Of a DNA stretch of 7,199 nucleotides, positions 3,992 to 6,871 are shown piece after piece. The notes under the pieces are model-generated. The model did no database searches. It was given only the letters and a program-made list of their open reading frames with translations, and was not told the DNA's origin. Position 1 is the stretch's first letter, and each line of letters begins with the position of its first letter. A program made the position numbers and the translations under genes. Source of the DNA: Candidatus Latescibacterota bacterium (GTDB taxonomy: Bacteria > JAAXHH01 > JABIQT01); assembly GCA_018667995.1 (NCBI GenBank), contig JABIQT010000833.1, positions 1 through 7,199 of the forward strand, read 5' to 3'.

Positions 3992-4411
3992 ATGTTGAAA
4001 CTCACCCATTCTGTGGTTGATATCGCCATAACGTGCAGCCACTTTGAGGAATCGCTACGCTTCTACAAGGAAAAGCTTGGATTTGACGTGGTCCTGGATG
4101 TTATGATTCCGGAGGATGTAGCGATCGCATCCGGACTGGCACCAACGGGCTTCAGGCAGGTTCGACTTCAGGCCGGCCAGACCTTGATAAAACTGATGGA
4201 TATTCAGCCTGCGCCTGAAAGACGGTCATCCGACTTCAGTGCAGGCGTGAGGTGGCTCACCTTTTTCGTTGAGGACGTGGCCGAAACGCGGGATGGACTT
4301 CTGGCCAGAGGAGTGACTTTTCTGTCAGAACCGGTTACGGCCCCGGATGCTGGAGGCGTCGTCTGCGCCCTGGATCCCGATGGTATCCTCATCGAATTCG
4401 TACAAACGTAG
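3992..4411 (+). CDS. VOC superfamily protein (glyoxalase/bleomycin-resistance fold), probably altered metal site
   Basis: The 139-residue product has the two beta-alpha-beta-beta-beta halves of a VOC protein. The first half starts with VVDIAITCSHFEESLRFY and KEKLGF (residues 8-31). The second starts with GVRWLTFFVEDVAETRDGLL (85-104) and ends in DPDGILIEFVQ (128-138). In typical metal-dependent members four residues bind the metal. Here the first His position appears to be D10, the Glu in the strand TLIKLMD is K67, the second His position is W88, and only the last Glu (E135) is kept. By that alignment a standard glyoxalase or dioxygenase reaction is doubtful; a ligand-binding role or a non-canonical enzyme is possible. 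The start at 3992 is set by GGAG at 3981-3984, seven bases upstream. It is the first gene of a plus-strand unit and is followed nine bases later by the phosphatase. Confidence 0.85.
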   Translation: MLKLTHSVVDIAITCSHFEESLRFYKEKLGFDVVLDVMIPEDVAIASGLAPTGFRQVRLQAGQTLIKLMDIQPAPERRSSDFSAGVRWLTFFVEDVAETRDGLLARGVTFLSEPVTAPDAGGVVCALDPDGILIEFVQT

Positions 4412-4420: not shown

Positions 4421-4906
4421 ATGCCAGTATGCCTCCTCGTAAAGCATGCCATGCCGAAGGTAGCACCTGGCGTGGCCGCTTGCGAGTGGCGACTATCCGA
4501 AGAGGGGCGCAGGGCCTGCCTGCCACTTTCGCGACGGCTGGCCGACTTCCAACCGGGAGTGGTTGTGACAAGCACCGAGCCAAAGTCTGTCGAGACAGGG
4601 TCGCTCGTCGCGGCAAATCTCGAAATCTCGTGTGAAAGCGCTGAAGACCTGCATGAACACAGGCGGCAGACGGTCGGCTATCTCTCGAAGGAAGGATTCT
4701 CCACCGGAATACAGGATCTATTTGCCCGCCCTGATCAACTGGTATTCGGGGAGGAGACGGCTTCTCTTGCACTGAGGAGATTTACGGCGTCCGTACAAGG
4801 AGTGGTAGCACGCTTTCCCGGTGAATCGGTTGTCATTGTATCGCATGGCACGGTCATCTCGCTCCTCATATCTGAACTGACCGATCAAGAAGCATACCCC
4901 GTTTGA
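4421..4906 (+). CDS. Histidine phosphatase family protein, ended early by an in-frame TGA
   Basis: The 161-residue product belongs to the phosphoglycerate-mutase-like histidine phosphatases, which remove phosphate through a phospho-histidine intermediate. The N-terminal motif is LLVKHAMP (residues 5-12): H9 is the nucleophile position, and Lys replaces the usual Arg of R-H-G. Also visible are LSEEGRR (25-31), TSTEPKSVETG (50-60, where Arg is often seen in place of K55), the acid-bearing EDLHEHRR (75-82) and the second catalytic His in VIVSHGT (138-144). The product stops at EAYPV. Relatives, as I recall them, continue with a Trp and then L-G-L-P and a hydrophobic strand. Here the same frame beyond the TGA encodes SSLGLPSIVVLSSP and runs to a TAA at 4985-4987. 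The full protein would have 188 residues. Loss of the last strand may affect folding, though all catalytic motifs lie before the stop. Confidence 0.8.
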   Translation: MPVCLLVKHAMPKVAPGVAACEWRLSEEGRRACLPLSRRLADFQPGVVVTSTEPKSVETGSLVAANLEISCESAEDLHEHRRQTVGYLSKEGFSTGIQDLFARPDQLVFGEETASLALRRFTASVQGVVARFPGESVVIVSHGTVISLLISELTDQEAYPV

Positions 4907-4987
4907 AGCAGTCTTGGTCTCCCCTCAATTGTTGTATTGAGCAGTCCCGTGCTTGATTTTATTGAGACTATTTCACATATTGAATAA
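4907..4987 (+). other. Conserved-looking phosphatase C-terminus beyond the in-frame TGA
   Basis: Read in the phosphatase frame, this stretch gives SSLGLPSIVVLSSPVLDF and then IETISHIE before TAA. The L-G-L-P-S-x-V-V-L-S run matches the usual last strand of this phosphatase family, as I know it. It therefore looks like former or read-through coding sequence rather than spacer. Confidence 0.65.
4924..4941 (+). other. Small hairpin 17 bases after the in-frame TGA
   Basis: CTCAAT (4924-4929) pairs perfectly with ATTGAG (4936-4941) around the six-base loop TGTTGT. The loop starts 24 bases after the TGA and has G at its second position. These features fall within the loose limits known for bacterial SECIS elements, but such matches arise easily by chance. 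There is no T-run after it, so it does not look like a terminator. Confidence 0.3.
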
Positions 4988-5041: not shown

Positions 5042-6871
5042 ATGTCCTCTCTTTATGAACCCGTCGCCGGCCTGGACAACCTGTTCCAGTTCCGAGATTG
5101 CTGCAATGTCTACATGCTCAAGGACGGGAACCACGCCATCTTGTTCGATCTCGGCAGTGGAACAGCGCTTAGTTCCTTTAAACAGTTCGGCGGCAATTAT
5201 ATTGACGTGCACGCAGTCTACTATACACATGCTCATAGGGATCAGTGCCAGGGAGCGCCGCGGGCAACTTCACAAGGTATTACACTTCACTTCCCGAAAG
5301 AGGCACGGGACTTCGTTACTAGTCCCGATAGACCCGATCTCAATGATATTACTGAGTATCGCAGATCATATCCAGGCCGCTTCGAACCACCGCGGCCGTT
5401 CGTGGGTGGCGAATTTGACATGCAGGGCGGAGATTCCTTCTCGTGGCGAGGGTATAACATAGAGGTAATTGCAGTCCCCGGCCACATAGATCATCAACTG
5501 GCTTTCCTCATAGATATCGGTGATGAAAGAGTATGTCTCTGCGGTGATGCTTTTCACGCACCCGGTAAAATGTGGGAAGCATATCATCTGGAAACGGATC
5601 ACTATACGGGAGCGGGTGTCCGAAGCGCCATGGAGTCGCTACGAAAGATCAAGCAACAACGTCCTACAGTACTCTGTCCTTCCCATGGTGACGTGCTTCA
5701 TGGTGGATGTTGGGACGCCATAGAGGAAACCATTGCTGGCTTGCGAACCCTTTCGGAACTCAAGGACTCCATATGTCCCGGAAGGCCGGCAGGAAAGCGG
5801 TTGGTCGAGTGTGAATCGGACACGCTGATCGAAATCAGTCCCCACCTCCTCATGTGGAATAATACCTACTTTCTTCTGAGTGAGACGGGCGGAGCTATGA
5901 TGATAGACGCCCAGGGCCCTCTGCCTGTTGCGTTTCATGAGCACTGGGCAAAAAAAGCTGGCGATCGGATTATTGAGGCGGTCCTCGTGACTCATCCCCA
6001 CTGCGATCATGTGGAAGGTATCCCGCCTCTCCAGGCATGGCAGCGGACGCAAGGCCATCCTGTATGCCAGGTTTGGGCCCATGAACGGGTGGCAGCGTGC
6101 GTTGAATCTCCCTTTCAATACCGAAGACCCTTCATGCCCATAGAACCGGTTGCCGTGGACCGCAGGTTTACCGACCGCGAACGGATCTCATGGCAAGGCT
6201 ATCAATTCACGGCATACGATATGCCCGGGCAGACAGACCTTCATGCTGCCTATGCCACAACGATCGACGGTCACAAGGTAGTTTTCAGTGGGGATAATTT
6301 CTTCCCGCCACAGAAGTGGGGCGGGATGGGTGGATTATCAGGCTATAATGGAGGCCACCCGGACCTCTGGCGCGGTAGTATTACGCGTATGATGGCCATT
6401 GGTCCTGAGTGGGTCCTGGCATCTCATATGCAGCCTCATCCCTATAGAAGGGAAGACTATGAGGCTATGCTGCAGTGGACCGGAAATATGAGTGCGGCCA
6501 TGCACTCTATTTCCCCTGACAATGGTGTGGTTCGTCACCATAATCCTCATTTTATCGGTTTGCATCCACATGCGCAGAGAATCGTAGATGGCGAGGGGAT
6601 GATCACAGCCTGGGTTATGAATCCGTACGACAACGATGTTGAGGTGTCCCTAAAGCTGGTTCTGCCCGGTGGAATCTCCGTAGAGACACGTGAAGTGACA
6701 CTCACTGTCCCGCCGGATCAGGGCGGAGAGGTCGTCTGGGGGCTGTCGGTTTCCGAGGCGTCACAACGCGGCCGGACAAACATGGTCACTGTGGACGTCA
6801 CCTACGATGGTGTCTATCTGGGCGAAAAAGCCGCCTGCTATGTGATAGAGAGTGAGCCAACCGTAGGATAA
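5042..6871 (+). CDS. Tandem two-domain metallo-beta-lactamase-fold hydrolase with C-terminal beta domain
   Basis: The 609-residue product carries two MBL domains in a row; most MBL hydrolases have one. Domain 1 (about 10-240) shows THAHRDQ (62-68), PGHIDH (146-151), CGD (167-169) and PSH (213-215). Domain 2 (about 260-500) shows THPHCDH (317-323), PGQTDLH (395-401), SGD (416-418) and ASH (460-462). Domain 1 lacks the final His of HxHxDH (Q68). Domain 2 keeps that motif but has Gln for the His after P-G (Q397). Residues about 515-605 form a beta-rich, Ig-like end (NPYDNDVEVSLKLVLPGG) of unknown role. No signal peptide is seen. The ATG at 5042 follows GGAG (5031-5034) by seven bases. MBL proteins hydrolyse esters, lactones, thioesters or phosphodiesters with bound metal; the substrate here is unknown. 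The gene lies downstream of the phosphatase on the same strand, 54 bases after the TAA that ends its extended frame. A strong terminator follows it. Confidence 0.87.
   Translation: MSSLYEPVAGLDNLFQFRDCCNVYMLKDGNHAILFDLGSGTALSSFKQFGGNYIDVHAVYYTHAHRDQCQGAPRATSQGITLHFPKEARDFVTSPDRPDLNDITEYRRSYPGRFEPPRPFVGGEFDMQGGDSFSWRGYNIEVIAVPGHIDHQLAFLIDIGDERVCLCGDAFHAPGKMWEAYHLETDHYTGAGVRSAMESLRKIKQQRPTVLCPSHGDVLHGGCWDAIEETIAGLRTLSELKDSICPGRPAGKRLVECESDTLIEISPHLLMWNNTYFLLSETGGAMMIDAQGPLPVAFHEHWAKKAGDRIIEAVLVTHPHCDHVEGIPPLQAWQRTQGHPVCQVWAHERVAACVESPFQYRRPFMPIEPVAVDRRFTDRERISWQGYQFTAYDMPGQTDLHAAYATTIDGHKVVFSGDNFFPPQKWGGMGGLSGYNGGHPDLWRGSITRMMAIGPEWVLASHMQPHPYRREDYEAMLQWTGNMSAAMHSISPDNGVVRHHNPHFIGLHPHAQRIVDGEGMITAWVMNPYDNDVEVSLKLVLPGGISVETREVTLTVPPDQGGEVVWGLSVSEASQRGRTNMVTVDVTYDGVYLGEKAACYVIESEPTVG

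Follow-up and report, generated by a model that had tools for sequence, protein, structure and literature searches.

The window analysed here, 7199 bases long, is a whole contig of a draft genome from a Latescibacterota-related bacterium (1165 contigs totalling 6.06 Mb, with 85% completeness and 4% contamination). Its central feature is a histidine phosphatase gene that opens with ATG at 4421, reaches an in-frame TGA directly after ELTDQEAYPV, and then continues in the same frame with SSLGLPSIVVLSSPVLDFIETISHIE to a TAA, as can be read directly from the DNA and as an earlier, sequence-only reading had described it. The product is 161 residues long up to the TGA, and 188 if the TGA is counted as one residue. 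No second stop or frameshift occurs anywhere else in the frame, and its sole other Trp is written TGG, in line with that reading. The base after the TGA is A (a UGAA context), and the TGA itself is a plain substitution in mid-contig, with no homopolymer length change and no contig end nearby. Directly 3′ of the phosphatase lies a gene for a 609-residue product in which a pair of consecutive metallo-beta-lactamase-fold domains is followed by a C-terminal extension.

Table. Coordinates of the interrupted phosphatase gene, its parts and its flanking genes in the window.
Feature	Position	Strand	Basis or remark
Glyoxalase/VOC-family gene	3992..4411	+	PF00903, E = 2.2e-17; upstream on the same strand, with 9 bases between it and the phosphatase gene
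Histidine phosphatase (branch 1) gene, interrupted	4421..4987	+	Whole ancestral frame, 188 codons and a TAA
In-frame TGA, residue 162	4904..4906	+	Occupies the column of an invariant Trp, judging from 10/10 homologs with Trp
Family-like tail past the TGA, 26 codons	4907..4984	+	Position-specific score of 30.1 bits; AlphaFold2 model
TAA, likely ancestral stop	4985..4987	+	Homologs L068, L069, L070 and L074 finish a few residues away
Gene with two metallo-beta-lactamase-fold domains	5042..6871	+	PF00753 and PF12706; downstream of the phosphatase, same strand

A search of genome contigs with the single phosphatase protein gave no match, and it was an alignment-based scan of GTDB genomes that yielded ten homologous loci, at 34–48% identity. 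Their records are those of Latescibacterota, Gemmatimonadetes, Anaerolineales, SAR202, Chloroflexota, Thermomicrobiales and Kouleothrix, and two of the ten coincide with L003 and L004 (L066 = L003; L067 = L004). The L003 and L004 homologs align without gaps across the TGA, with 47% and 44% identity over 183 and 188 positions. The residue aligned to the TGA is Trp in all ten homologs and a stop in none, and no homolog ends there: the 188-residue product aligns straight through. In nine of the ten, the Trp is followed by residues close to L-G-L-P-S and by a strand; the partial L075 is more divergent there. The family motif around the column is W-x-x-L-x-L-P-S, which bears out the family ending given in the sequence-only reading, a Trp shortly before L-G-L-P. 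Because every homolog has Trp in this column and the tail scores within the family range (see below), the TGA, as judged from the alignment, stands in place of an invariant Trp.

Family likeness past the stop, also claimed beforehand, is far above chance. Using a position-specific matrix built from nine homologs, the 22 aligned tail residues of the window gene scored 30.1 bits, and the homologs themselves, scored leave-one-out, ranged from 12.6 to 46.4 bits. None of 20,000 shuffles of the tail reached this value (maximum 10.3), and the next-best among 14,262 stretches from all six reading frames of the window scored 2.1 bits. When neutral decay was simulated from the tail as it now stands, the mean score fell to 19 at 10% divergence. 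The tail is without sign of long decay, and the cause of the TGA should therefore be recent, an error, or tolerated. An undecayed tail is, however, equally expected under a sequence error or working readthrough.

Membership of the enzyme family is supported by the PF00300 profile, which matches the first 161 residues (E = 3.9e-14) and gives the window protein 53.2 bits, above the curated cut-off of 21.7; every sequence in the homolog alignment matches the profile too, and homologs elsewhere align over the entire frame. In the alignment used for conserved residues, which included nine of the ten homologs, the catalytic His near the N-terminus (H9) and the second His in a late H-G motif (H142) are invariant, and both precede the TGA. 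The classical active-site Arg pair, consisting of the Arg before the catalytic His in R-H-G and a second Arg, is absent, with K8 and K55 instead. Nearly all homologs likewise have Lys for both usual Arg residues (K-H instead of R-H-G; E-P-K): Lys occupies residue 8 in 9/10 rows of the alignment and residue 55 in 10/10, and the solved relative 2qni has Thr and Lys. On this alignment, the two Lys are a trait of the subfamily and not of damage. They weaken the claim of classical catalysis, but profile and fold still place the protein in the superfamily.

An AlphaFold2 model of the read-through sequence, made with nine homologs, has a pLDDT of 94.4 and a pTM of 0.91. It places W162 within a helix (158–164), after which come strands at 169–174 and 180–184. 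Atu0299 (PDB 2qni), a branch 1 protein of PF00300, is the top match both by sequence (phmmer E = 9.7e-13) and by fold (Z 21.7 with an rmsd of 2.6 across 185 residues). The model also matches PhoE of Bacillus stearothermophilus, with Z 20.7–20.9, ends included. Atu0299, at 25% identity to the window protein, is uninterrupted, whereas a stop falls at residue 162 of the window gene. The read-through product is thus predicted to be a complete branch-1 histidine phosphatase, and the complete alpha/beta fold is predicted for this product only. Because the TGA removes the end of the helix and the last two strands, the 161-residue product is probably unstable or inactive.

How TGA is used in the source genome bears directly on the meaning of the stop. 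Two class-I release factors are encoded, RF1 on L006 and RF2 on L005, assigned from their own sequences and from adjacent genes, which encode a PrmC-like methylase and a LysS-like synthetase. The RF2 gene (prfB) begins MMGTELRDALREARTRIDTLRRTL, then has a TGA in the context CGGAGGACTCTTTGACC, and resumes in the +1 frame; it thus keeps the programmed CTT-TGA-C autoregulatory frameshift site, whose mechanism is as described in PMC5373646 and which makes sense solely if RF2 reads UGA. Within the window, two genes end naturally in TGA, as had been pointed out earlier: an FG-GAP gene at 1906–1908 and a minus-strand gene at 2525–2527. The start of a minus-strand thioesterase gene (2046–2528) overlaps the latter as TGATG (2525–2528), and translational coupling is likely. 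Across three large families of the source genome, no in-frame TGA occurred in 218 domain matches (49 sulfatase, 85 GFO_IDH_MocA and 84 ABC_tran), and the other in-frame stops numbered two (one TAA and one TAG), each within a fragmentary match. Elsewhere in the same assembly, a GFO_IDH_MocA domain on the minus strand (G000:C772:805-1171) is divided between two matches that overlap and contain a TAG, and it resembles a frameshifted gene. Neither tRNA-Sec nor SelB was found above cut-offs in the 85% complete source genome, where weak tRNA hits turned out to be tRNA-Ser and tRNA-Leu, and tRNA-Trp was not found in this draft by Rfam/ARAGORN or by pattern.

Taken together, the Trp column, the undecayed tail and the working TGA stop support the order of preference given by the sequence-only reading, with a nonsense mutation ahead of a sequence or assembly error and readthrough last. 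We consider it probable that the locus is a young, single-lesion pseudogene allele, produced when a Trp codon recently underwent one nonsense change. The evidence establishes the ancestral Trp, the intactness of the tail and the use of TGA as a stop in the source genome; we infer that the TGA base is real and that the change is recent. One base change would have converted the codon of the invariant Trp to TGA in an otherwise intact branch-1 phosphatase gene. RF2 would then terminate at this TGA, giving a 161-residue protein that has H9 and H142 and is without the last two strands. Such a protein would probably be unstable or inactive, and the pseudogene allele may have reached fixation or may still be segregating in the population. 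As in young pseudogenes, the disabling lesion falls at a site that is intact in all ten homologs.

Loss of the phosphatase should also be tolerable. Among 15 other genomes of the phylum that were searched, a relative of the gene is present in two, with no detectable relative in the remaining 13, and this patchy presence makes the gene look dispensable. In the taxonomic family of the source organism, no genome other than its own was found; plasmid records hold distant relatives only, and the source genome encodes another, more distant histidine phosphatase.

The most serious rival, unlikely though worth keeping in mind, is a consensus error, in which the assembled base is wrong (through sequencing error, low coverage or a base from a minority strain) and the real gene reads Trp. 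The intact remainder of the frame and the undecayed tail fit this explanation, as does the source being a fragmented draft. A plain substitution in mid-contig, however, is neither a homopolymer length change nor a contig-end effect, and the domain matches of this assembly contain few in-frame stops. The weights that we give to a nonsense change and to a consensus error rest on judgement.

Functional readthrough, in which a near-cognate tRNA-Trp would decode the UGA and yield a useful full-length enzyme kept under selection, seems improbable. In E. coli, UGA is known to be decoded by near-cognate Trp and Cys tRNAs, and RF2 binding is relatively weak at UGAA, the context found here (PMC5373646); the intact tail would also be expected. 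Because no homolog carries a stop in the column, however, there is no conserved recoding signal, and a search for a readthrough- or SECIS-like structure 3′ of the TGA found none, the downstream structure being not unusual (z = -0.99). We give still less credence to an unprogrammed, lineage-specific leaky termination, in which the organism's own tRNA-Trp would read UGA as Trp often enough to keep the phosphatase working. Low-level readthrough is possible in any bacterium, and nothing at this locus indicates that it is programmed or useful.

That the 161-residue product is a naturally shortened, working enzyme with a dispensable tail is very hard to credit: both catalytic histidines do precede the TGA, but all homologs keep the tail, the Trp is invariant, the tail supplies two strands to a predicted fold whose match to solved relatives spans residues 1–188, and decay would be expected in a dispensable tail unless the change was recent. 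Equally negligible is a genome-wide reassignment of TGA to Trp, already thought unlikely in the sequence-only reading, or a selenocysteine at this codon: the TGA does fall on a Trp column, but a code 4-like reading is rejected by the retained RF2 with its autoregulatory TGA frameshift, by genes that end in TGA and by the absence of in-frame TGA from the 218 domain matches, and a selenoprotein is unsupported, as homologs have Trp rather than Cys and no tRNA-Sec or SelB exceeds cut-offs in the 85% complete genome.

The gene is properly annotated as a histidine phosphatase with a single in-frame stop interrupting it (a possible pseudogene or consensus error), not as a 161-residue enzyme. The interrupted gene is no evidence for an altered genetic code, and a single in-frame stop like this one counts as ordinary gene damage. 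If readthrough were true, the gene would be kept alive by leaky UGA decoding.

Comparison with known systems places the locus more precisely. A recently described lineage that reads TGA as Trp, for which a tRNA-Trp with a 4-bp anticodon stem is described, has no RF2 and no terminal TGA (PMC13092985), whereas the source genome has both. In E. coli K-12, nudL and pheL undergo UGA readthrough and share with the window gene a UGA(A) and an in-frame extension; their extended products were, however, shown by tagging (PMC5373646), and that of the window gene is hypothetical. Premature stops are a common class of bacterial pseudogenes, accounting for 131/346 in Salmonella (PMC2916853). The window gene would share with single-lesion young pseudogenes such as those of Salmonella (PMC2916853) one inactivating point change in a frame that is otherwise undecayed.
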